A stretch of DNA of 64,000 bases from Nonomuraea sp. MG754425 (GTDB taxonomy: Bacteria; Actinomycetota; Actinomycetes; Streptosporangiales; Streptosporangiaceae), in contig NZ_SSXE01000028.1 in the NCBI RefSeq assembly GCF_021699195.1, positions 1 through 64,000 on the forward strand, read 5' to 3'. Shown here one piece after another: positions 2,953 to 43,261 of this stretch. Below the pieces are notes generated by a model. That model saw only the letters and a list, made by a program, of their open reading frames with translations, was not told the DNA's origin and did not search any database. Within the stretch, counting starts at the first letter, position 1, and each line of letters opens with the position of its first letter. Made by a program: the position numbers and the translations under genes.

Positions 2953-3819
2953 ATGGTTCGTCATATGAGCATCGGGAATCCTGCGCTTGCCGACGTGCTC
3001 GCACAGCATGGCACGCCACATCGCCTGCTGAGCGCTCTAGCCGACGGCGGAGTCCTGGTGGCAGTGCGACCAGACCGTTCCGTCGTCCTCGGGACGACGC
3101 AGGCCGGCGACCGCGTCCTGCTCGGATACACGAGCGCGACCACCTACGCCCGGCACCGTGGCAGCCATTCCCTGTCGGCCTGCGACGCCGACACCATCCT
3201 GGACATCCAGCGCGTCACCGGGGTGCGCGAAATCGTGATCGACGCGGCCGGACCAGCCGCCGCGGCCGTGCCGATCGACGATCTCCAGCGCTTCATGACC
3301 ACGACCCGCACCGGGCCGACGCCCGTGCTGTCGGGGACGGTCCCGGCCGCCTACGCGACGGGCGCGATGGCCACCGTGTCGCGCGGCGCCGCGGTGGCCC
3401 AGGTGGCGCCCCCGAGCCCGCACGCCCCGTCGCTGCCCTGGGTCCCCGCGCCCCGGCCGCACCTGTCGGGGCCGATGCAGCAGGTGGACCCGGGTTACCG
3501 GCGCTGCGCGCATCCCATCCTGCCCGCGCTGCGGCAGGCGATCGGGTACCTGCTCGTGGACTTCCCGCTCGTGCACCACGTCTGGATCTCCGAGGCCGGC
3601 ACGGCGTCCGGGGCCACCGGGATCATGCTGCACGTCAAGGTGCACATGTCGGCCGCCGAGGACGTCGTGCGCGACCTGCACCGCCTGGTGCGCGCCCGGC
3701 TGCCGCAGTTCGCCGCCTCCGGGGCGCCGATCCTCATGGCCCGGGTGGCGGACACCCGTAGCGAGCAGCGGATGATCGAGATCGGCGCGCACGTCGTGTG
3801 CGCCAGCGTCTCGGACTGA
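2953..3819 (+). CDS. SseB-like domain protein, function unknown (288 aa)
   Basis: The N-terminal 100 residues (LLSALADGGVLVAVRPD, VLGTTQAGDRVLLGYTS, then ALSACDADTIL-like spacing and a REIVIDAAGP strand) resemble the SseB N-terminal domain, which is frequent in actinobacterial proteins of unknown role. A Pro/Ala-rich linker follows (about residues 140-175). The C-terminal part (HPILPALRQAIGYLLVDFPLVHHVW to ILMARVAD) resembles the second SseB-type domain. There is no signal peptide. Two starts are possible, 2953 and the ATG at 2965; neither has a strong ribosome site. It is transcribed alone and ended by the hairpin just downstream. Confidence 0.85.
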   Translation: MVRHMSIGNPALADVLAQHGTPHRLLSALADGGVLVAVRPDRSVVLGTTQAGDRVLLGYTSATTYARHRGSHSLSACDADTILDIQRVTGVREIVIDAAGPAAAAVPIDDLQRFMTTTRTGPTPVLSGTVPAAYATGAMATVSRGAAVAQVAPPSPHAPSLPWVPAPRPHLSGPMQQVDPGYRRCAHPILPALRQAIGYLLVDFPLVHHVWISEAGTASGATGIMLHVKVHMSAAEDVVRDLHRLVRARLPQFAASGAPILMARVADTRSEQRMIEIGAHVVCASVSD

Positions 3820-3821
3820 GC

Positions 3822-3872
3822 GTGCCGGGAGGGCCCTCCGGGAGCGATCCGGGAAAGTGGGCCCTCCCGCAC
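3822..3872 (+). terminator. Terminator after the SseB-like gene
   Basis: GTGCCGGGAGGGCCC (3822-3836) pairs with GGGCCCTCCCGCAC (3859-3872), a 14-bp stem with one bulged base, starting two bases after the stop codon. Confidence 0.75.
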
Positions 3873-3899
3873 GGGCCGCCGCTCGGCTGTAATGAGGGG

Positions 3900-5255
3900 A
3901 TGATCACATCGGCGGCGAGCATGGCCACCGTTCCCAGAGGCGTGCGCTTCGGCTACGGGGTCGGCTCGTTCTGCACGGCCACCTTCAACGGCGTGCCCGG
4001 GCTGCTGCTGCTGTTCTACATGACGAACTTCCTGGCCGTGCCCGCGTGGCTGGCCGGGGTGGTGGTCACCGCGCCGAAGGTCTGGGACCTGTTCGTCAAC
4101 CCCCTGGTGGGACGCTGGTCCGACCGGACCGTCTCGCGCTGGGGGCCGCGGCGGCCGTGGCTGCTGGCCGGGGCGTGCACGCTGCCGATCACGTTCTTCC
4201 TGGTGTTCGCCGGGCCGCCGCTGACCGGGGTGCCGGCCGCGCTGTACGTCGGGGCCTGCTTCCTGGCCGCGGCGACCGCGTACGCGCTGTTCGAGGTGCC
4301 GTACAAGGCGATGCCCGGTGAGATGACGCACGACTACCACGAGCGCACGTCGCTGCTGCAGTGGCGGATGGTGTTCGTGGGGGCGGCGACCGCGATCATC
4401 GGGGTGCTCGCGCCGATCATCGCCACCAGCGAGGGCGCGGAGGGCACACTCGGCAGCTACCGGCTGATGGCGCTCACGATCGCGGTCATCCTGCTGGTCG
4501 CCATGCTCGGCTCGTTCTTCGGCACCGCCCGCGCCCCCATGACCGGCGCCCCCGAGCCGGACCGCGGCGGGTGGCGCGAGCAGTTCGCCGCGATCAAGGG
4601 GGACTCGGCGTTCCTGTGGCTGACGGTGCTGGCCTGCGTGCAGATGCTGGCCGTCAGCATGATGCTGGCCGCCGCGCCCTACTTCGCCACGTACACGCTG
4701 GGCTCGGCCGCGGCCACGCAGACGCTCTTCGCCGCGCTGGTCGGCCCGATCCTGCTGACGATGCCGGTGTGGGTGCGGGTGGCCAGGCGCTTCGACAAGC
4801 GCGGCGCGATGCTCCTCGCGGTGCTGCTGTTCGGGGGCGGCACGACGGCCGCCATGGCCACGCCGCTGTTCGGCCCGGTCTGGGCGCACTGCACGATCCT
4901 GCTGGTCGGCGTCGGGTACGCCGGGCTGCAGCTCATGCAGTTCTCCATGCTCGCGGACGTGATCGCGGTGGACGCGGCCAGGACGGGCAAGCGGCGGGCC
5001 GGGGTGCTGACCGGCCTGTGGACGGCCATCGAGAGCGGCGTCAGCGCGTTCGGCGCGCTGATCTTCGGGATCATCCTGTCGGTCGGCGGCTTCATCGAGT
5101 CCGACCCGAGCAGGATGGTCGAGCAGCCCGACAGCGCCCTGACCGCGGTGCTCATCGGCCAGACCGCGATCCCCGCCGTGATCATCTTCGCCTCGGCGCT
5201 GATCACGCTGAAGTATCGGCTCAGCTCACCCGTCGCACCGGATGCCCGTGCCTGA
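3900..5255 (+). CDS. GPH-family (MFS_2) sugar:cation symporter
   Basis: This is a 451-aa membrane protein with about 12 hydrophobic segments. The start region RFGYGVGSFCTATFNGVPG, the loop DRTVSRWGPRRPWLL after TM2, and EVPYKAMPGEMTHDYHERT are typical of the glycoside-pentoside-hexuronide (MelB-like) family, which imports sugars with H+ or Na+. The substrate cannot be read from sequence. ATG 3900 gives MITSAASMATVPRG; ATG 3921 is an alternative, because GAGGGG directly abuts 3900. No glycosidase or sugar regulator is adjacent. Confidence 0.88.
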   Translation: MITSAASMATVPRGVRFGYGVGSFCTATFNGVPGLLLLFYMTNFLAVPAWLAGVVVTAPKVWDLFVNPLVGRWSDRTVSRWGPRRPWLLAGACTLPITFFLVFAGPPLTGVPAALYVGACFLAAATAYALFEVPYKAMPGEMTHDYHERTSLLQWRMVFVGAATAIIGVLAPIIATSEGAEGTLGSYRLMALTIAVILLVAMLGSFFGTARAPMTGAPEPDRGGWREQFAAIKGDSAFLWLTVLACVQMLAVSMMLAAAPYFATYTLGSAAATQTLFAALVGPILLTMPVWVRVARRFDKRGAMLLAVLLFGGGTTAAMATPLFGPVWAHCTILLVGVGYAGLQLMQFSMLADVIAVDAARTGKRRAGVLTGLWTAIESGVSAFGALIFGIILSVGGFIESDPSRMVEQPDSALTAVLIGQTAIPAVIIFASALITLKYRLSSPVAPDARA

Positions 5256-5351
5256 TCGCCATGGATGCCGAGTATGCATACCGAGCAGCCCCGGGGCACC
5301 CCGATCGCCGTATTCTGGACACGCACCGAGGTTGAGGCCGATACTCGCTCT

Positions 5352-5900
5352 ATGAGCTCCACGCATCCGCCCTTTCGCGCCTCAGATGGGGAACGTGACC
5401 GTGCGATCGACGAGCTCAAAGAGCGGGCGGTGGAAGGCCGGATCTCGCACGACACCTTCGTGGGCCGGGTCGACCAGGTGCTGCGCGCCCGCAACCAGAA
5501 CGAGCTCGACGATCTCGTGGCCGACCTGCCACGACGCCAGTCGCTGCGGCAGCGGCTGACCGACGCCGTCTCCTCGGTCTCCGAGTTCACCACCCGGTTG
5601 CAGTCGGCCTGGCGGCGGCCCCGCCTGCCGCGGCTGGCGCTGCCCGCCGACGACCGCCTGCGGTACGTGGTGGGCCGGGGCTCGGCCTGCGACCTCGTCC
5701 TGTCGGATCTGACGGTCTCCCGCGTGCACGCCGAGTTGCGCCGGGAGGGCGACGGCGGCTGGATGCTGGTGGACCTGGGCTCGCTCAACGGCACCCGGCT
5801 CAACGGGTGGCGGCTGGTGGGGCCGATGCGGGTGAAGTCGGGCGACGAGGTCTCGTTCGGCGACTGCGGGTTCATGGTGACCTCGCAGCAGCCGATCTGA
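5352..5900 (+). CDS. DUF1707 plus FHA domain protein
   Basis: This is a 182-aa cytosolic protein. Residues about 8-60 (RASDGERDRAIDELKERAVEGRIS, then DELDDLVADLP-type sequence) form a DUF1707 (SHOCT-like) segment, common at the N-terminus of actinobacterial small proteins. Residues about 100-180 form a forkhead-associated domain: YVVGRGSACDLVL, SRVHAELRR, LGSLNGTRLNG. The Gly-Arg, Ser-Arg-x-His and Asn-Gly residues that bind phosphothreonine in FHA domains are present. It may therefore read out Ser/Thr kinase activity; three such kinases lie at 57.9-62.7 kb, though no physical link is shown. ATG 5352 is chosen because upstream codons lack family resemblance. Confidence 0.88.
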   Translation: MSSTHPPFRASDGERDRAIDELKERAVEGRISHDTFVGRVDQVLRARNQNELDDLVADLPRRQSLRQRLTDAVSSVSEFTTRLQSAWRRPRLPRLALPADDRLRYVVGRGSACDLVLSDLTVSRVHAELRREGDGGWMLVDLGSLNGTRLNGWRLVGPMRVKSGDEVSFGDCGFMVTSQQPI

Positions 5901-6052
5901 GCCGGCTCTCGCCGGGCCGGTGCGGCCGTTCGGCACGTCTGGCGTGCGACTTCACCGCCCGCTTAGCCCCTATAAATACGGATATTTGCGGATCACAGGC
6001 CGACTGTACTGATCCATGCTCTCATGCGATCCCCCAGTCACTTGGAGACCCC

Positions 6053-7597
6053 ATGCGGCGCACCTCAGCCTCCCTCGTCGCGGGCACGCTCGTCGCGGCC
6101 CTCGCGTGGGCGTCCGGACCCTCCGCTCCCGCCATCGCACTCGACCCCGCCGTCGGCGTGGCGGACCTGACCCAGGACATCAACCAGATCCTCAGCGACT
6201 CACGCCTCACCATCGCCAGAGCGGGCGTCGTGGTCAAGAGCGCCCGGACCGGCGAGGAACTCTACGCCACCGACGCCGGCAAGCTGCTCCTCCCGGCCTC
6301 CAACACCAAGCTGTTCACCTCGACGGCGGCGGTCGAGACGCTCGGGCTCGACTACCGCTTCCCTACCACCGTGCTGAACACCGGCCGCAAGGCGGGCTCG
6401 GTGCTGGCCGGCGACCTGGTGCTGCGCGGCACCGGCGACCCGACCATGCTGGCCGAGGACTACGACGCGCTGGCCGCCGAGGTGGCCGCGTCCGGCGTCA
6501 AGGTCGTCACCGGCAAACTGGTGGCCGACGACACCTGGTTCGACGCCCAGCGGCTCGGCAACGACTGGTCCTGGGACGACGAGACCGCCTACTACGCCGC
6601 GCCGATCTCCGCGCTGACCGCCTCGCCCGACCGGGACTACGACGCCGGCTCGGTGATCGTGGCGGTGGCCGCCGACGGGGACAAGGTGAAGGTGTCCACC
6701 ACGCCGGAGACCGACTATCTGAAGATCGTCAACAAGGCCACGGTGGGCGCCGAGACCGACGTGCTCATCGAGCGGCAGCACGGCACCCGCACGGTGGTGA
6801 TCACCGGCACGGTCGCGGACCCGTACCAGGAGTGGGTGGCCGTGGACGACCCCACGGCGTACGCCTCCGCGCTGTTCCGCGCGTCGCTGGCCAGGCACGG
6901 GGTCAAGGTGCTCGGCCAGACCGTCACGGGGGCGACCCCGTCGGGGGCCAAGGAGCTGGCCGCGCACGAGTCGATGACGCTGGGCGAGCTGCTCGTGCCG
7001 TTCATGAAGCTGAGCAACAACATCCACGCCGAGATCCTCACCAAGGCGATGGGGCGCAAGGCGTCGGGCCAGGGCACCTGGTCGGCCGGGCTCAAGGTCA
7101 GCACCGACTTCGCCAAGGCCAACGGCGTCCAGGTGATCAACATGCGGGACGGCTCGGGCCTGTCGCGCCGCGACGGCTTCTCGCCGGGCTCGATCGTGCA
7201 GCTCCTGTCGGCCGTACGCACCAAGCCGTGGTTCACCACCTGGTACGACGCCCTGCCGATCGCGGGCAACGCCGACCGCTTCACCGGCGGCACCCTGCGC
7301 TCCCGGATGCGGGGCACGCCGGCGGAGAACAACGTGCACGCCAAGACCGGCTCGCTCACCGGGGTCACCGCGCTGTCCGGCTACGTCACCGGCGCCGACG
7401 GCGAGCCGCTGATCTTCTCCATCATGCTCAACCAGTACCTGTCGGGCTCGCCCAAGGACATCGAGGACAAGATCGCGGTCCGGCTCGCCCAGTTCTCCCG
7501 GAACTCGGCCGCGGGCGACGCCGCCCAGCTCCGTGTCCCGGCCGCGGGCGCGACGGGCGACCTGGAGTGCTCCTGGACGAAGCCCGCGGAGTGCTGA
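6053..7597 (+). CDS. dacB: D-alanyl-D-alanine carboxypeptidase/endopeptidase (peptidase family S13)
   Basis: This 514-aa exported penicillin-binding protein of the PBP4 type trims the terminal D-Ala of peptidoglycan peptides and may cut cross-bridges. A signal peptide (MRRTSASLVAGTLVAALAWA) precedes the mature protein. Active-site motifs are in order: SxxK in PASNTKLF (about residue 82), SxN in KLSNNIHAE, and KTG in HAKTGSLTG. The insertion domain between the first two motifs is as in other S13 enzymes. GGAGA six bases before ATG 6053 supports the start. An AT-rich TATAAAT box lies at about 5970 in the upstream gap. A perfect hairpin follows the stop. Confidence 0.95.
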   Translation: MRRTSASLVAGTLVAALAWASGPSAPAIALDPAVGVADLTQDINQILSDSRLTIARAGVVVKSARTGEELYATDAGKLLLPASNTKLFTSTAAVETLGLDYRFPTTVLNTGRKAGSVLAGDLVLRGTGDPTMLAEDYDALAAEVAASGVKVVTGKLVADDTWFDAQRLGNDWSWDDETAYYAAPISALTASPDRDYDAGSVIVAVAADGDKVKVSTTPETDYLKIVNKATVGAETDVLIERQHGTRTVVITGTVADPYQEWVAVDDPTAYASALFRASLARHGVKVLGQTVTGATPSGAKELAAHESMTLGELLVPFMKLSNNIHAEILTKAMGRKASGQGTWSAGLKVSTDFAKANGVQVINMRDGSGLSRRDGFSPGSIVQLLSAVRTKPWFTTWYDALPIAGNADRFTGGTLRSRMRGTPAENNVHAKTGSLTGVTALSGYVTGADGEPLIFSIMLNQYLSGSPKDIEDKIAVRLAQFSRNSAAGDAAQLRVPAAGATGDLECSWTKPAEC

Positions 7598-7620
7598 CCG
7601 CCCGCCGATCGTGAGATCGC

Positions 7621-7643
7621 GGCCCCCTGACGCTCAGGGGGCC
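7621..7643 (+). terminator. Terminator after the S13 carboxypeptidase gene
   Basis: GGCCCCCTGA-CGC-TCAGGGGGCC is a perfect 10-bp stem with a 3-base loop, 23 bases after the stop. Confidence 0.85.
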
Positions 7644-8021
7644 GTCACGGTTTACCGAGATGAGCGCGATTGGTATGACGATTCAGCAACTTGGAGCTCC
7701 AAGTTCACCTCTCAATTTCCGTACATAGCCGACTTGAGGGGACCAGAATGCGGATTCGACGCACTGTCGAGCCCCTCGACCGGAGGACGGAATGCACGAA
7801 CAGCCCCAGGCTGTGATCCGCCCCGGACGACCGGGGTCCGCCAGCCGCTGAACAGGACTCCCCCGACCAAGGGAGCGTCGGGCTTTCACCGGCCCCACCC
7901 CGAGCCGGTATCCCACCGCACGCCCACACGCTCCCCTCCGGGCGGACCCGGCCGCGCCTCCCCCCGCACACAGGACCGCGGCCGGGTCCGCACACCTCCG
8001 GACCCGGACCACGCCGTCAGG
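7644..8021. other. 378-bp gap with an 18-bp perfect palindrome and a short ORF
   Basis: There is no normal gene. AACTTGGAGCTCCAAGTT at 7688-7705 is a perfect 18-bp palindrome in an AT-richer patch. At 7792-7851 (+) a 19-codon ORF, MHEQPQAVIRPGRPGSASR, has GGAGG at 7782-7786, an ideal distance from its ATG. It is followed by an inverted repeat CCCGAC/GTCGGG and CTTTC. No + strand gene follows, so a leader role has no obvious target. The end of the gap holds the terminator of the ABC operon. Confidence 0.4.
7982..8007 (-). terminator. Terminator of the ABC transporter operon
   Basis: CCGGGTCCG (7982-7990) pairs perfectly with CGGACCCGG (7999-8007). It sits 15 bases past the stop of the last permease gene on the minus strand. 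Confidence 0.65.
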
Positions 8022-8801
8022 TCACCCGGGACGCCGGTCGGAGAACCGGGCCAGGACGAGCGCCTCGACGACGCCGACGGCCGCGTACGCCAGGATGGAC
8101 ACCCCCGTGACCACCACGATGTCCGCCCACACCTCGTCGTAGCGGAAGCCGCCGATCGCCCGCAGGATCTCGGCCCCGATGCCCTCACCGGTGGCCAGCC
8201 ACTCGGCGATCAGCGCCCCGATGATCGACGCGGGCACGGAGATCCGCGCCGAGGCGAACACCGACGGCATCGCCGTCGGCACCGCCACCTTGCGCAGGAC
8301 GGTCAGCCGGGTGCCGCCGTACGCCCTGACCAGGTCCGTGGCCTGCGGCGAGGCCGAGCGCAGGCCGAAGGCGATGGTCACCAGCGCGGGGAAGAACACC
8401 ACGACGCCGCCGATCACCGCCACGCCCAGCAGCTCGCGGCCGAAGACGAGCGTGATCAGCGGCGTCATCACCACGAGCGGCACCGAGCGCAGCAGCATGG
8501 CGACCGGCATGAACGTCTGCTCGACGGTCCTGAACAGCACGAACGCGACCGCCACGGCCATCGCGGCGACCATCCCGGAGACGAAGCCGATGGCCGCGTC
8601 CCTGATCGTGATGCCCAGCGCGCCGAAGACGGCCTCGCGGTGCGCCTCCGACGACGTCAGGTACTCCCAGACCTGCGGCGGGCGCTTGCCCACCAGCGGG
8701 CTGATCCCGAACGCCTCCAGCGCCAGCCACCACGCGGCCACCACGATGACGACCGACGGCACCAGCGGCCCGACGATCCGCGCGACGGTGCGGCCGATCA
8801 C
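8022..8801 (-). CDS. ABC transporter permease (SsuC/TauC/ThiX type), second
   Basis: This is a 259-aa inner-membrane permease with about six hydrophobic segments. The EAA loop (YGGTRLTVLRKVAVPTAMPSVFASARIS) contacts the ATPase. It belongs to the BPD_transp_1 family used by importers for sulfonates, taurine and thiamine-pyrimidine precursors. GTG 8801 overlaps the stop of the preceding permease by four bases (GTGA), so the two are probably translationally coupled and form a heterodimeric channel. It is the last gene of a four-gene operon that starts with the binding protein. Confidence 0.92.
   Translation of the reverse strand: MIGRTVARIVGPLVPSVVIVVAAWWLALEAFGISPLVGKRPPQVWEYLTSSEAHREAVFGALGITIRDAAIGFVSGMVAAMAVAVAFVLFRTVEQTFMPVAMLLRSVPLVVMTPLITLVFGRELLGVAVIGGVVVFFPALVTIAFGLRSASPQATDLVRAYGGTRLTVLRKVAVPTAMPSVFASARISVPASIIGALIAEWLATGEGIGAEILRAIGGFRYDEVWADIVVVTGVSILAYAAVGVVEALVLARFSDRRPG

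Positions 8802-33931: not shown

Positions 33932-33935
<4 letters not shown>
33453..33935 (+). CDS. tctB: Tripartite tricarboxylate transporter small membrane subunit
   Basis: This is a 160-aa protein with four hydrophobic segments: [58 protein letters not shown] with [14 protein letters not shown], and [18 protein letters not shown] (each given in part). A charged acidic loop ([12 protein letters not shown]) lies in the middle. TctB subunits are poorly conserved and help the large subunit. The gene overlaps tctC by one base and tctA by four, so the three proteins are coupled. Confidence 0.92.
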
Positions 33936-35449
<1,514 letters not shown>

Positions 35450-35494
35450 CGACGGCCCTGGCCGGGAACCTCCATAAGCGGTTCTTGGCCGCGC

Positions 35495-35526
35495 GGCCCC
35501 GCCGGTGTGTCCGGATCGGCGGGGCC
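35495..35526. terminator. Bidirectional terminator between tctA and gatB
   Basis: GGCCCCGCCG (35495-35504) and CGGCGGGGCC (35517-35526) form a perfect 10-bp stem between the two convergent genes. Confidence 0.78.
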
Positions 35527-35534
35527 CGCCGGGG

Positions 35535-37043
35535 TCACTCGCTGACGCCGAGCTTGTCCAGGATGAGCTGCCGGGCCCGGCCCGCGTCGGCCTTCCCCTT
35601 GCTGGCCCGCATCACGCCGCCGACGAGCGCGCCCGCCGCGGCGATCTTCCCGGACCGCACCTTCTCGGCCGCGTCGGCGTTGTCGGCGAGCACCTGGTCG
35701 ATGATCGCCGACAGCTCGCCCTCGTCGTTGACGATGCGCAGCCCGCGCCGCTCGACCACCTCGTCGGGCGTGCCCTCGCCGGCGAGCACGCCTTCGAGCA
35801 CCTCGCGCGCCAGCTTGTCGTTGAGCGCGCCCGAGGCCACCAGTTCGGTCACCCGGGCGATCTGCGCGGGCGTGATGGGCAGGTCGGCCAGCGGCGTGCC
35901 GCTCTCGTTGGACTTGCGGGCCAGCTCGCCCATCCACCACTTGCGCGCGTCGGCCGCCGGCGCGCCGGCCGCGACGGTGGCCTCGACCAGGTCGAGCGCG
36001 TCGGCGTTGTACATGGCCTGCATGTCGAGGTCGGACAACCCCCACTCGGCCTGCAGCCGCTGGCGCCGGACCGACGGCATCTCGGGCAGGGCCGCCTTCA
36101 GCTCGGCCACCCACGCCATGTCGGGCGCGATCGGCACCAGGTCGGGCTCGGGGAAGTAGCGGTAGTCCTGCGCCTCCTCCTTGGAACGGCCGGACGTGGT
36201 GCCGCCGGTGTCCTCGTGGAAGTGGCGGGTCTCCTGGATGATCTTCCCGCCCCCGGTGAGGACGGCCGCCTGCCGCTCGATCTCGCTCCGCACGGCCCGC
36301 TCGACGCTGCGCAGCGAGTTGACGTTCTTGGTCTCCGTGCGGGTGCCCCACTCGGAGGCGCCCCGCGGCATGAGCGAGACGTTGACGTCGCAGCGCAGCG
36401 AGCCCTCCTCCATGCGCACGTCGGAGACGCCCAGCGAGCGCATGATCTCGCGCAGCTCGGTGACGTACGCCTTGGCCACCTCGGGCGCGAGCCGGTCGGT
36501 GCCGGGGATGGGCTTGGTCACGATCTCGACCAGCGGGATGCCGGCGCGGTTGTAGTCGACGATCGAGTAGTCGGCCCCCTGGATGCGCCCGGTCGCGCCG
36601 CCCACGTGGGTGGACTTGCCGGTGTCTTCTTCCAGGTGCACCCGCTCGATGCCGATCCGCACGGTCTGGCCCTCGATCTCGACGTCGAGGTACCCGTCGA
36701 AGCAGAGCGGCTCGTCGTACTGGGAGATCTGGTAGTTCTTCGGCATGTCCGGATAGAAGTAGTTCTTCCGGGCGAAGCGGCACCACTCGGCGATCGAGCA
36801 GTTCAGCGCCAGGCCGATGCGGATCGTCGACTCGATGGCCTGGGCGTTGGCCACCGGCAGCGACCCCGGCAGCGCCAGGCAGGTCGGGCAGACCTGCGTG
36901 TTGGGCGGGGCCCCGAAGGCCGTCTTGCACCCGCAGAACATCTTCGACCTGGTGCCCAGCTCGACATGCGTCTCGAGACCGAGCACCGGCTCGAACCGCT
37001 CGAGCGCTTCGTCGTACGGCATGGTCCCTGCTGTGTCAATCAC
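35535..37043 (-). CDS. gatB: Asp-tRNA(Asn)/Glu-tRNA(Gln) amidotransferase subunit B
   Basis: This 502-aa subunit binds and phosphorylates mischarged tRNA so that GatA-derived ammonia can amidate it. The kinase core has [27 protein letters not shown] (zinc-binding Cys pairs), [18 protein letters not shown] and [11 protein letters not shown]. The C-terminal YqeY-like tail reaches [13 protein letters not shown] 37043 is chosen because GAGG lies upstream; [10 protein letters not shown] at 37022 is an alternative. The start overlaps the end of the DUF4276-like gene by eight bases, so gatB translation is coupled to an accessory gene rather than directly to gatA. Confidence 0.97.
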
Positions 37044-37686
37044 GGATCAACCTCAGTTCTTTCAAAGCCTCGCGCGTCTCGGCCAGCCAGAGACGATACG
37101 AGGGCACGCTTTCCAGGTAATCCAGGCTCATCGACTCGGCGATGAGCGTGAGGTAGTCGCCCGCTTCCCGGCCCGCTCGGCGACGACGCCTGCCACTCGC
37201 GACGATGTCCTTCAGTGTCCGCTTCGGATCGGAGAGACACTCCACGCGTGGGAGCCGATCGCCTTCGAAGACGTCCCTGGCACCCCACGCCGACCCGGTG
37301 ACCTCGCGCAGCACATCCCGGTCACTCAGCGCCCAGCTCTCCATCTCGCGGATCGGGACCACTCTCACCAACGGCCGTCGCAACCTGTGCTCGTTCCACG
37401 CCTGTCGTAACGGAGCCCAGTATTTCCGCTCGTCGCGGTCCGGAGCCGCCGAACCGTCATAGTGGTAGAAGAGCAAGGTCATCCCGGCCACCGCCGACCG
37501 TGCCGCCCGGCACACCGCCTCATGGCGCGACTCCTGGTCCCGCACGGATACCCGCAGGACCTGAACCTGAGCCACGCCGAGGTCGTACGGAAGGCACATG
37601 CGGTTCAGCGCCCTCTCCAGCAACACCGGCAGGAAATCGTAGTCGGAGTTCCCCTCGGCGGTCAGAAAGGCGTTGACCTCGATCAC
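37036..37686 (-). CDS. DUF4276-like protein, putative TOPRIM-type nuclease partner of the ATPase
   Basis: This is a 216-aa cytosolic protein. The start [23 protein letters not shown] has the Glu-Gly-x-x-Asp pattern, and [13 protein letters not shown] carries Asp residues after a hydrophobic strand; together these resemble the acidic cluster of TOPRIM folds. [14 protein letters not shown] resembles the later conserved block of DUF4276 proteins. The family call is from memory and moderate. GTG 37686 overlaps the ATPase stop by four bases (GTGA) and its own end overlaps gatB by eight. ATPase plus DUF4276/DUF4435/RloB-type pairs are a recurring layout of phage-defence systems; the role here is inferred. 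Confidence 0.75.
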
Positions 37687-39089
37687 GAGGCCTCCTCCAG
37701 CAACTGCCGGGCCTCTTCCTTCGAGATGGCGGAGAAGGCCCGCCGCTCGGGCCCCGAGACGACCAGCCCGACCTCGTCCAGCGGGGGCGTTCCGTGCGGC
37801 GTGCTCGGCACCAGACGCCGGGCGCGTGAGACACGGCTGCCGACACCGGACGCACCGCTGTCCGGCACGGTGATCCAGTCCATGACCAGGAGGTCCTTGG
37901 AATCCAACGCCACGAGCATCAGGGGCGAGTGGCTGCTCATGATGAGCTGCGCGAGAGGCTCCTCCTCTTCGACGACCCGAGCCGGATCGGTGACGAGCTT
38001 GCGGAGGTGCCGTACGAGTTCGCGCAGGCGCTGCGGGTAGATCCCGTTCTCCGGCTCTTCGAAACAGATCAGCCCCCGGTGGGCCGGGTCGTAGAGCGCC
38101 GCCAGGAGGGCCAGCACGCGCAACGTGCCGTCGGACGCGACGCGGGCACTCACCCTTCCCTCGTCCCGCGTTCGGAGGTAGATCTCCCACTGCTCCTTGG
38201 CGAGGTTCTCCTCCACCTCGATGCCGGCGAACCCGCGGACGACACGCGCCATGTCGGCGGCGATCTCGTTCAGCGAGGAGCCGAACTCGTCCGCGGTCGT
38301 CTGCTCGATCCGGCGCAGGACCTTGGCGAGATTCGCGCCGCTCGGGTCAAGCTGCTCCCCTCTTTGGTGACGGGAACTCGGCATTCGCAGTGAGGCCGGG
38401 TCGAGCTGCAGGAAACGCCAGGACGCGATCTCCTTCCTGAGCGCGTACAGCAGCGGGAACTCGCCCGCCGACGTGATGCTCGAAAGGACGGTGGCCTCCG
38501 CGGCGTGCGCCGCGAGCTCTCGCTTGCGCCCCTGTCTCCCCTCCTGCGCGATCCGGAAGACTCGACGGCCGGCGTCGTCCACGGTCGTCTCCAGGAGAGG
38601 GGACTGCCGTTTGTAGCGCAGGAACGAGGCTCGGAAGTCCTTTCCGGCCTGCTGATCACGCACCCAGGCGTCATCGGCCGAACGGATGGGACGTGCTTCC
38701 TCCCGCGCCACGTAAGGCCGTACGAAGCCGTCGTCGCTCCGGCGCTGGACGATCTCGAGCTCGTAGCGGATGCGGGTGTGCGACACCTCGAACTCCGCGC
38801 CGAACTGATCGACCACCTTCGGGTCGAGAAGGACTTCGATCGCGAAGGTCATGCCACCCACGAAGCTGCCGTCGCCACGCCGCCTGAACAACTCGCCGAG
38901 GTCACCCCGCGCCTCGGCGAACGCGTCATAAAGGCTGGGGGTGTCCACGAGCCGGCGAAGTAGCTGAACGCCATCGAAAAGGTTGGACTTCCCGCTGGCG
39001 TTCGGACCGATCACCACGAGGAACGGCGGCACGTCCAGCTTGAAGTTCGCGAACGACTTGAAGCCGTCGATCTCGATGTGCGTGAGCAT
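37683..39089 (-). CDS. AAA/RecF-like ATPase (AAA_15/AAA_21 type), putative defence ATPase
   Basis: This is a 468-aa ABC-type ATPase of the OLD/SMC group. The N-terminal strand LTHIEIDGFKSFANF leads to Walker A GPNASGKSN (about residues 28-36). The signature-like segment is ASDGTLRVLALLAALYD, Walker B is LICFEEPENGIYP (Glu-Glu-Pro-Glu-Asn, about 357), and the switch His is in MSSHSPLML. No nuclease domain is fused; the DUF4276-like partner may supply it. GGAGG stands before ATG 39089, 21 bases after gatA. In its first 60 codons I count eight with A/T in the third position, against two of 60 in gatA, which hints at later acquisition. Confidence 0.88.
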   Translation of the reverse strand: MLTHIEIDGFKSFANFKLDVPPFLVVIGPNASGKSNLFDGVQLLRRLVDTPSLYDAFAEARGDLGELFRRRGDGSFVGGMTFAIEVLLDPKVVDQFGAEFEVSHTRIRYELEIVQRRSDDGFVRPYVAREEARPIRSADDAWVRDQQAGKDFRASFLRYKRQSPLLETTVDDAGRRVFRIAQEGRQGRKRELAAHAAEATVLSSITSAGEFPLLYALRKEIASWRFLQLDPASLRMPSSRHQRGEQLDPSGANLAKVLRRIEQTTADEFGSSLNEIAADMARVVRGFAGIEVEENLAKEQWEIYLRTRDEGRVSARVASDGTLRVLALLAALYDPAHRGLICFEEPENGIYPQRLRELVRHLRKLVTDPARVVEEEEPLAQLIMSSHSPLMLVALDSKDLLVMDWITVPDSGASGVGSRVSRARRLVPSTPHGTPPLDEVGLVVSGPERRAFSAISKEEARQLLEEAS

Positions 39090-39110
39090 GCCGCCGTCCC
39101 TCCTGCAGCC

Positions 39111-40597
<1,487 letters not shown>

Positions 40598-40601
<4 letters not shown>

Positions 40602-40897
40602 GCCTCCTCCCCGAGGATGCGCGGCACCCGGAAGCGGTCGTCCTCGACGGCGGGGGCGCCGGCGAGCGCCTGGTCGGGCGTCAGGGACTGTCGCACCTCG
40701 TCGGCACGGAAGACATTGGTCAGCGGAAGCGCGTGCGACGAAGGCGGCACGTCCTCGGCGGCGACCTCGGCCACCTTCGCGACCGACTCGATGATGGCAT
40801 CGAGCTGGGTGGCGTAGTGATCGAGTTCGTCGTCGGTCAGCGCCAGCCTGGACAACCGGGCCAGGTGTGCGACCTCGTCGCGGGTTATGGCGGACAT
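40598..40897 (-). CDS. gatC: Asp-tRNA(Asn)/Glu-tRNA(Gln) amidotransferase subunit C
   Basis: This 99-aa subunit wraps around GatA and GatB and stabilises the complex. The start [23 protein letters not shown] and the end [14 protein letters not shown] are typical of the family. It is the first gene of the operon; its promoter must lie in the 105-bp gap to the GGDEF-EAL gene. The length is normal. Confidence 0.95.
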
Positions 40898-41002
40898 GAG
40901 TCGTTGAACCCGTTTCGTGGATGGAGTCTTTGGACAGTGCCATCCTAGGGGGCTTGACGTCGCAGCCCCGAACCATTAACCCACCGGCAACATCCGCACC
41001 TG

Positions 41003-43069
41003 TCAGGCCGGGCTGCTGACCTCAGGCTGGTACCCGTACTCGGCCGCGCCCCCGGCGCGATCGCGCAGCCACGCGGCGGCCTGCGCGGCGGGCATCGGGT
41101 GGCAGAACAGCCAGCCCTGCCCGACGTCGCAGCCCATCTCCGCCAGCCGCATCGCGACGTCGTCCGACTCCACGCCCTCCGCGACCGACCGCAGCCCGAG
41201 CGAGCGGACGAGGTCCACGATGGAGCGGACGATGCGGTAGTCGTCCTCGGACTCGGCGATCCGGCGGACGAAGGAGGCGTCGATCTTGACCTCGGACACC
41301 GCCAGCCGCTGGAGCCGGATCAGCGAGGAGTAGCCGGTGCCGAAGTCGTCGAGCGCGAGCGGCACGCCGAGCGTGGCCAGGGCCTTGATGGTCTCCTGCG
41401 TGTACGCCTGGTCGCCGGTCAGGATGCGCTCGGTGACCTCGAGCTGGATGGCCGCGGGCGGCAGGCCGTACCGGGCCAGGCCCACTTCGAGCTGCTCGGG
41501 CAGGGCGGAGGCGAGCAGGTCGCGGGCCGAGATGTTGACCGAGATCTGCACCCGCAGCCCCGAGTGCCACCAGGCGGCGGCCTGCTCCAGCGCCTCCTCG
41601 ATCACGTACGCGGTGAGTTGCCGCATCAGGTACGACTGCTCGGCCAGCGGCACGAACTCCGACGGCGCGATCATCCCGTGCGCCGGATGCCGCCAGCGCA
41701 GCAGCGCCTCGACGCCCTGCACGTCGCCGCCGGCCAGCCCGACCTTGGGCTGGTAGTGCAGGCGCAGCTCGCGGTTGTCGATGGCGCGGCGCAGGTCACC
41801 GAGCAGGGACAGGCGCTCGGGCGAGTTGCGGTCCTTGTCGGCCTGGTAGAGCTCGACGCCCGTACGGCCCTCCTTGGCCAGGTACATGGCCACGTCGGCC
41901 CGCTGCAGGAGCAGTTCGAAGTCGGGGGCGTGGTCGGGGTAGAGCGCGATGCCGACGGAGGCGTCGAGGTCGAAGGTCATGCCCTCCAGGCGCACGGGCT
42001 CGGTGAGCGCCGCCCGCAGCCGGGCGGCGACCTCCCTGGCCGCGTGCGCGTCCCTGATGGAGGGCAGCAGCACCGCGAACTCGTCGCCGCCGAGCCTGGC
42101 CACGACGTCGCCGGGCCGTACGGAGTGGGTGAGCCGGTGCGCGATGAGCTGCAGCAGCCGGTCGCCCACCGGGTGCCCGAGCGTGTCGTTGACCTCCTTG
42201 AACCGGTCGAGGTCGAGCAGGAACAGCCCGACGCGCTCGTCCTGGCGCGCCTCGGCCAGCGCCTCCTCGGTGCTGACGATGAGCAGCTTGCGGTTGGGCA
42301 GGGCGGTCAGCTCGTCGTGCATGGCCTGGTGGTCGCGGCGCATGGAGAGGGTGGCGGTGAAGTAGACGGCGGCCAGCGGCGCGACGAACAGCGGCACGAG
42401 GCCGGGCGAGTGGCTCATGACCACCACGACCAGGGGTGCCAGGCCCAGCAGGCCGGTGTAGACGAGGCTCTGGGGGCCCACGGTGGCCCTGAGCACCCGC
42501 ATGATCGAGCGCCGCTCGTGCAGCGCGACCGCGCCGGTGACCAGGGTGGCCCTGGTGACGAAGTACGCGATCCCGGACAGCGCGATCGCCGCCAGGTCGC
42601 CCCCGCCGGGCATCCAGGGCATGGCGGGGCTCGGCACGATGCCGAACGTCCCGAGCACCACGGCCGCGGCGGTGAGCGCGAGGGTGGACTGGGCGATGTT
42701 GAACATGACCCGGTGCCACGACCTGCGCGTCACCACGCCGTTCATGACGACGGCGACCGCCTGCATCAGCACCGCCACGGGCAGCCCGAGGTGCAGCAGC
42801 ACGGCGAATGTGAACATGGTGGACGGGTACGTGCCGCCCACGACCGTCGCGGACGACACCATCACGGGCCTGAGCTCACCCAGGATCACCAGCACCGCGA
42901 GCATCCAGAACAGCGGCGTGCGGGCGAGCCCGGCCAGGCCGGCCGCGTCCAGCCGCAGCATGGCCACCACCAGGGCGGTGAAGCCGATCACGGTGATGCC
43001 CGCGAGATAACCCCACAGGGGGCTGCCGGCGCGTGGGCCGGTGTCACGGGTGTCGGTTGGGTCAGTCAT
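41003..43069 (-). CDS. Membrane GGDEF-EAL protein (cyclic-di-GMP turnover)
   Basis: This is a 688-aa protein. About eight hydrophobic segments fill residues 18-270 (an integral sensor region), then comes a GGDEF domain with intact [11 protein letters not shown] and [18 protein letters not shown], then an EAL domain with [15 protein letters not shown] and [10 protein letters not shown]. Both active sites look complete. Unlike the protein at 23.1-25.9 kb it has no PAS domain. ATG 43069 (MTDPTDTRD) is preferred; ATG 43087 is in frame and possible. It lies between gatC and ligA with no link to either. Confidence 0.92.
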
Positions 43070-43261
43070 CGGTAACAGAACCCCCATTAGGTCACTATGG
43101 GAGGGTACGACCTTCACCCCACTTCGCGAAACCAAGCGCGTACGTTCCGTCACTTCTCCTATCCGACATATACCCAAAAAGCACCCTCAGTAGCAAACCG
43201 TGCACGCAACGACGAAGGGGCCCGCCCGCACCCGGCGAACGAACCCCTGCGAAACGCGGGC

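Follow-up and report, generated by a model that had tools for sequence, protein, structure and literature searches.

A HEC-01-like ATPase/DUF4276 gene pair, probably antiphage, lodged between gatA and gatB in Nonomuraea and related actinomycetes

A passage of PMC12839542 treats OLD-ABC ATPases combined with alternative nucleases as conflict modules. HEC stands for 'Hma embedded candidates', which are candidate systems of PADLOC-DB according to a passage of PMC10855318; PMC12988326 cites a Payne 2024 preprint for their definition, and reports several HECs, including HEC-06, as active in a passage that does not name HEC-01. HEC-01 itself is named in a list of systems of Desulfovibrio piger in an excerpt of PMC12724379. 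In PARIS, which consists of AriA and AriB, AriB cuts tRNA-Lys, tRNA-Thr and secondarily tRNA-Asn, and leaves tRNA-Gln(UUG) uncut, as stated in a section of PMC12409363. Here we describe a pair of genes, encoding an OLD/ABC-type ATPase and a DUF4276 protein, that splits gatA from gatB in a 64,000-nucleotide stretch of Nonomuraea sp. MG754425 (contig NZ_SSXE01000028.1, positions 1 to 64,000; hereafter the window). We read the pair as a HEC-01-like ATPase/effector cassette, probably antiphage, that has become lodged in the gat operon.

The genes of the window locus run in the order gatC-gatA-ATPase-DUF4276-gatB on the reverse strand, with the following features:

40598..40897, reverse strand: gatC, an open reading frame (ORF) of 99 aa, which as a tblastn query matches upstream of gatA in 13/13 named loci
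39111..40601, reverse strand: gatA, Pfam Amidase (E 7e-155)
39090..39110, reverse strand: gap of 21 bases between the gatA stop and the ATPase ATG, with a GGAGG ribosome-binding-type motif at 39099-39103
37683..39089, reverse strand: OLD/ABC-type ATPase, HEC-01A-like, type A form, 468 aa (AAA_21, PADLOC HEC-01A, alignment conservation)
37683..37686, reverse strand: GTGA overlap of 4 nt between the ATPase stop and the DUF4276 start (sequence)
37036..37686, reverse strand: DUF4276 protein, HEC-01B-like, putative effector, 216 aa, GTG start (Pfam DUF4276, PADLOC HEC-01B, conservation)
37036..37043, reverse strand: overlap of 8 nt between the DUF4276 stop and a possible gatB GTG start (sequence; coupling)
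35535..37043, reverse strand: gatB, GatB_N (E 4e-113), with a conserved ATG at 37022 and a possible coupled GTG start at 37043

ORFs and Pfam matches confirm the original prediction, made from the DNA letters, that genes for an ATPase and a DUF4276-like protein separate gatA from gatB, and its spacings of 21 bases with GGAGG and of a GTGA overlap are exact. Its eight-base overlap into gatB holds if gatB starts at the GTG at 37043; a matching GTG is also present in both other Nonomuraea type A loci (types are defined below), and the conserved gatB ATG follows the DUF4276 stop at a distance of 13 nt. The gatA-gatB junction of the window contains just the two module genes and no mobility gene. 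A simple consensus scan of 35300-41200 found no promoter-like site on the operon strand, which is weak evidence. The window is part of a 122 kb contig in an assembly of 11.3 Mb with an estimated contamination of 4.77%; because the same arrangement recurs in other genomes, an assembly artefact is unlikely.

The ATPase matches Pfam AAA_21 (E 8.2e-30) and AAA_15 (E 1.1e-16), and its best PADLOC profile is HEC-01A (PDLC04184, E 4.6e-158, residues 1-431). Inspection of its sequence revealed the stretches GPNASGKSN, SDGTLR, EEPENG and SSHSP, which we take to be the Walker A, signature, Walker B and H-loop motifs, respectively; conservation was checked in a 99-row alignment. A PDB sequence search with the ATPase alignment returned SMC, OLD, PtuA and Ec83 proteins, matches that support the ATPase class only. 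The partner protein matches Pfam DUF4276 above the curated cut-off (E 3.3e-9), and its best PADLOC profile is HEC-01B (PDLC04210, E 4.3e-49). PDLC04184 and PDLC04210 are also the best models for pairs at locus L049 (type C), L216 (type B), L319 (away from gat) and L326 (fused). Within the DUF4276 protein, E11, D15, H75, D77, E116, W118, L120, D122, E149 and P154 form a conserved set: of the 85 to 88 gat rows aligned at these positions in a 99-row alignment, 77 to 87 retain the residue, as do all 8 or 9 non-gat rows, residues being counted just where aligned. The motifs are spaced H75xD77 and E116xWxLxD122, with EGxxD and HxD conserved, and the acidic set appears enzyme-like and reminiscent of TOPRIM.

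A single-protein first query of a collection of 84,980 genomes gave no match; a pattern-seeded search with an alignment query gave 13 loci. These confirmed relatives come from Nonomuraea (six), Microbispora (five), Spongiactinospora (one) and Streptacidiphilus (one), and all 13 sit between gatA and gatB. In the window's family, Streptosporangiaceae, 100 of 341 genomes had a match at E<=1e-5, with 117 places listed. Every one of the 77 places with E<=3.6e-18, which belong to 76 genomes, has gatA and gatB on either side, and so does the decayed copy G154. The pair or a recognisable decayed copy occupies the junction in 77 of the 341 genomes (10 Nonomuraea and 67 others), and at least five of the 67 (L199, L227, L228, L229 and L230) look incomplete or interrupted; the remaining 39 places on the list gave weak matches, most of them partial. 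Among 345 Streptomycetaceae genomes, 23 had a match at E<=1e-8 and 12 a strong one (E<=4.7e-32), of which 11 are flanked by gatA and gatB and the exception, L240, is a single-ORF fusion. Strong matches in a class-wide draw of 394 genomes (E<=8.6e-23) were confined to the window's family. The recurrence in the family and Streptomycetaceae surveys rules out a single insertion peculiar to the window genome.

Relatives away from gat are few. Fourteen neighbourhoods of weak or other matches were fetched, nine from weak-match family genomes and five from the class and Streptomycetaceae searches (including the fusion in G965), and none of them contained gat genes. L326:8001-9800 (G965), the one strong match detected away from gat, is an ATPase-DUF4276 fusion in one frame. 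The earlier question of whether homologues ever occur in defence contexts has one positive answer among five scanned non-gat neighbourhoods (10 large neighbour proteins): in L323:7854-13754, from the Streptomycetaceae draw, a pair directly adjoins a PglX homologue (BREX/Pgl-type). At L324:6573-10009, two nearby ATPase genes fit the family profile, with a DUF4276 match at about 8001-8342. The sole match in a plasmid search was an N. gerenzanensis record (80%), and a phage search gave one weak match (25.6%, E 6e-4), distantly DUF4276-like, at L284:3581-4222 in MT836135, an unannotated phage contig from human faeces.

Comparison of related gatA-gatB neighbourhoods, a check proposed with the original prediction, showed that the module does come and go, being patchy across 54 Nonomuraea genomes and across the family. 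The 54 Nonomuraea junctions, the window included, comprise three with type A, seven with type C, 12 with gaps of 33-578 bp and 32 with 2-23 bp. An ATPase N-terminus is detectable by tblastn in 3 of the 12 leftover gaps, and the others retain, by eye, the first ATPase codons and/or the type C leader that precedes gatB. That 12 of 54 junctions are leftover gaps contradicts the earlier proposal that coupling to the operon prevents easy loss. From 213 family genomes of other genera that have gatB and lack a match at gat, 40 were sampled; 26 had gaps of 11-20 bp and 14 had gaps of 101-553 bp. Among these 14, tblastn detected an ATPase fragment in two, an ATPase start and/or a DUF4276 end could be seen by eye in a further nine, and in three (L249, L272 and L278) nothing was recognised. 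Neither the 54 Nonomuraea genomes nor the 40 sampled ones had a recognisable unrelated gene at the junction; in the 40, ORFs were inspected in gaps above 300 bp without a family scan.

Coupling between the genes was surveyed at 78 gat loci outside Nonomuraea. The ATPase and DUF4276 genes overlap by 4 nt in 59 loci and by 1 nt in 11; two loci (L202 and L228, the other 76 being unfused) hold them in a single open frame, and six gave another value or none. In 57 of the 78 loci, the DUF4276 stop overlaps with an in-frame gatB start (by 4 nt in 38, 8 nt in 18 and 14 nt in one), a count made without a shuffled control; tight coupling to gatB is common. Fusion of the ATPase and DUF4276 in an open frame is found in L202, L240 and L228, the DUF4276 match of L228 lacking the first 39 profile positions. 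It is established which genes and families are present, that the site recurs, that the pairing is constant, fusions included, and that start and stop codons overlap. The gatA-gatB gap measures 2.0-2.5 kb in Streptomycetaceae (L231-L239, L241 and L134) and mostly 1.7-2.1 kb elsewhere, and L134 has an extra short reading frame between gatA and the ATPase gene.

Trees of the ATPase and of DUF4276, both quick trees in which several long branches meet (a warning given by the tool), contain the same three deep types, A, B and C, and no mixed pairs were seen. Type A comprises the window, G064, G025, two g71 genomes and one Streptomycetaceae genome. Type B has 18 rows in each gene tree, all from the window's family, and type C has 65 rows, made up of 54 from that family, 10 gat-embedded Streptomycetaceae and the L240 fusion. 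The gat-embedded rows and the non-gat fusion L240 form one side of a branch with a support of 100 in the Shimodaira-Hasegawa-like approximate likelihood ratio test (SH-aLRT), the other side holding 10 non-gat ATPase rows or 9 non-gat DUF4276 rows.

On a gatA+gatB tree of 86 rows, the type labels require 19 changes, the minimum being 2. (The incomplete L199 and L134 were left out, L134 also from the gatB tree, and L200, which has both types, was labelled C.) Shuffled labels required a mean of 22.2 changes and as few as 19 in 5 of 200 cases; since 19 is close to the shuffled mean, the types are nearly scattered over the tree. Sisters with unlike modules include L050 (A) and L054 (C), with support 100/99, L233 (A) and L239 (C), 100/96, L166 (C) and L217 (B), 100/100, and L200 (C+B) and L227 (B), 100/99. 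L042 (A) and L049 (C) are supported as sisters at 100/94 in this tree and at 95/70 in a 54-genome DNA tree, and the 150 bp of gatA and of gatB that flank their unlike modules are 98% and 99% identical, so that the exchange is sharply bounded. At its beginning, gatB varies with module type over six to seven codons. In L200 (G234), type C and then type B modules stand in tandem between gatA and gatB (about 3775-7622, oriented to gatB). The Streptomycetaceae type A copy is 70% (ATPase), 54% (DUF4276) and 69% (gatB) identical to the window, and these identities are most simply read as a move of the module from one family to another, after which it stayed at this junction. Patchy presence, type changes among sisters and the L042/L049 flanks rule out strict vertical inheritance; the original prediction would have been refuted by a pair present in all members of the order and inherited vertically, which is not what is seen, as the distribution is patchy and the types swap. 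The locus is real, recurrent and more structured than had been supposed.

Codon use gives a mixed picture. Among the first 60 codons, 8 of the ATPase gene and 2 of gatA end in A or T, exactly as originally counted, and so do 7 of gatC. G+C content at third codon positions (GC3) is 0.868 for the ATPase, 0.811 for DUF4276, 0.986 for gatA, 0.980 for gatB and 0.880 for gatC. Because the GC3 of gatC is similar to that of the ATPase gene, the codon contrast alone does not mark the pair as foreign, and the original hint of a foreign origin is weakened. In six Nonomuraea pairs, the ratio of nonsynonymous to synonymous change (dN/dS) is 0.06-0.23 for ATPase and DUF4276 alike, and both module genes are under purifying selection. 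Synonymous distances of gatB are lower than those of the module genes in these pairs (L066/L068 being left out of the gatB comparison), for which codon bias may partly account. It is likewise established that the module is under purifying selection, has decayed copies and differs in type between sisters.

The DUF4276 protein is predicted to have an alternating beta-alpha topology (predicted local distance difference test, pLDDT, 79). In a VIA-align comparison, the top matches of the model were Argonaute/PIWI MID domains (Z 10.9, root-mean-square deviation 2.8, 117 aligned), a likeness that we take as a shared Rossmann-like arrangement and not as kinship. Its second match in BFVD by Foldseek was a viral RloB-like model (probability 0.91, E 0.023, TM-score 0.38). 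AriB was not among the 50 listed structural matches in either the PDB Foldseek or the VIA-align comparison, and a PDB sequence search with the DUF4276 alignment returned nothing (best E 0.98).

We infer a defence role from the family profiles, the cassette-like turnover and the one non-gat relative beside PglX. In the mechanism that we favour, the locus would be a two-gene module in which the OLD/ABC-type ATPase serves as sensor and switch and DUF4276 as effector, belonging to a clade of HEC-01-like modules anchored at the gatA-gatB junction, whose alternative versions replace one another as cassettes. The ATPase would sense phage interference and unleash DUF4276, which is probably a nuclease that requires metal ions and attacks RNA/tRNA or DNA, with a growth stop as in PARIS. 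The module would be expressed from the gat promoter, and the site may persist through a cassette that supplies the gatB start and moves by recombination in the conserved flanking genes. A bolder form of this proposal is speculative and rather unlikely: the ATPase would guard GatCAB or its tRNA substrates, and a phage disturbing amidation or translation would trigger destruction of tRNA-Gln and tRNA-Asn by DUF4276, making gat a guarded immune locus with alleles swapped as cassettes.

Several observations weigh against a defence cassette. Antiviral activity of the pair was not found in the literature searched, which included no paper containing DUF4276 and none with gatCAB together with antiphage. 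The nuclease-like or TOPRIM fold originally thought possible for the small protein is not established: no Foldseek match fell below E 1e-3 (the best in PDB, E 0.048, being an unrelated enzyme), and hhalign of DUF4276 against the OLD TOPRIM gave 19% probability, with the EG motif in register. The predicted ATPase structure was unusable (pLDDT 45) and was set aside. A plain transfer of the AriB tRNA idea to the gat module is disfavoured because AriB leaves tRNA-Gln(UUG) uncut. Because the search profile derives from gat-embedded rows, its sensitivity is biased towards that clade, and the gatB start overlaps were counted without the control mentioned above. The four non-gat neighbourhoods other than L323 contained glycoside hydrolases, pullulanase/amylase, a sensor kinase and a helicase/WYL protein, and type C is present in 16/16 genomes of genus g79, which also fits a housekeeping role.

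Such a role would make the pair a helper of GatCAB that monitors or repairs tRNA-dependent amidation without any part in phage infection. It would suit the near confinement of the clade to gat, the lack of a recognised unrelated junction gene in 40 genomes and the invariable presence in g79. It would also suit the host's tRNA charging: no AsnRS or GlnRS (asparaginyl- and glutaminyl-tRNA synthetase) match above NCBIfam cut-offs was found in the draft genome, lower-scoring ones being taken for related synthetases, and GatCAB is thus presumably the sole route to Gln-tRNA and Asn-tRNA. Most relatives, however, do without the pair, with 32 of 54 Nonomuraea junctions empty and 12 reduced to leftover gaps; three very unlike types that replace each other are more typical of conflict genes, and the family profiles are those of a defence candidate. 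We regard a helper as possible and on balance unlikely, and judge in the same way its example form, destruction of mischarged Glu-tRNA-Gln or Asp-tRNA-Asn.

Alternatively, the pair could be a passenger or selfish cassette that takes its host hostage through coupling to gatB and persists without benefit. The frequent overlap of a possible gatB start with the DUF4276 stop (57/78 loci), a module GC3 below that of gatA and gatB (though hardly below that of gatC) and the frequency of decay speak for this, but both proteins are under purifying selection and the window junction has no mobility gene. Junctions reduced to a leftover gap, with gatB retaining a start region of its own, are also common, and the coupling is for this reason no hostage-taking; altogether a selfish cassette seems improbable. 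Repeated gain, loss and exchange at one site, together with the tandem modules of L200, might instead point to a generic integration hot spot at which any defence system may land. This is disfavoured and in our estimate very improbable, as no unrelated gene was recognised at the junctions of the 54 Nonomuraea and 40 other genomes (the latter without a family scan) and the clade is hardly found elsewhere. We retain the HEC-01-like defence cassette as the probable explanation.

Beyond the operon, the window has an ORF convergent with gatB at 33932-35449 on the forward strand, by eye presumably a TctA-like membrane protein, and another beyond gatC at 41003-43177 on the reverse strand, which we take by eye to encode a GGDEF/EAL-type regulator.

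Defence genes are usually found in islands or on mobile elements, alongside many unrelated systems. In contrast, one ATPase/effector clade here keeps to a single junction in a presumably essential operon across two families of actinomycetes; its versions differ strongly between sister species, and gatB start codons lie at the module edge. This suggests that a bacterial immune module is tied in a fixed and perhaps functional way to an operon essential for protein synthesis. The locus is a natural case in which a link between immunity and tRNA charging can be tested directly, and it offers a route to modules that searches based on islands may miss.

The original prediction likened the pair to defence systems with an ATPase and a small effector; this layout is borne out by the HEC-01 candidate-family profiles, and identity with PARIS or AbiL, which it named, is ruled out by profile ranking and, for PARIS, also by the absence of DUF4435 from all 120 family genomes searched, the Nonomuraea host included. 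PARIS is, by analogy of layout, the nearest understood counterpart of the window pair. Both combine an OLD/ABC ATPase with a small partner, and single-gene fusions, reported for PARIS in a passage of PMC10568477, also occur among gat-type pairs, whereas the effector is DUF4276 in the window and DUF4435 in AriB, and HEC-01A fits the ATPase far better than do the AriA profiles (E 4.6e-158 vs. E 1.5e-30). RloA/RloB-type pairs share with it the weak structural likeness of DUF4276 to the RloB-like viral model, but the window protein has no RloB Pfam match and the TM-score is just 0.38. The NCBIfam model antiphage_MADS3, for MAD3 of MADS, aligns to the window ATPase (E 1.2e-40), although at 140 bits against a cut-off of 420 the ATPase is no member by that model. 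With HEC-01 the agreement is closest: both window proteins best match the A and B profiles and are encoded by an adjacent, same-strand pair with a 4-nt overlap. We call the pair HEC-01-like and not plain HEC-01 because it lies outside an Hma locus, which PADLOC presumably does not require for HEC-01. The pairing was at first thought undescribed; the HEC-01 candidate family is known, and the gat-anchored, swapping clade was not found described in the literature searched. The window pair differs from HEC-01 in being flanked by gatA and gatB instead of lying in an Hma locus, in its coupling to gatB, and in belonging to a set of three types that swap at one core site.

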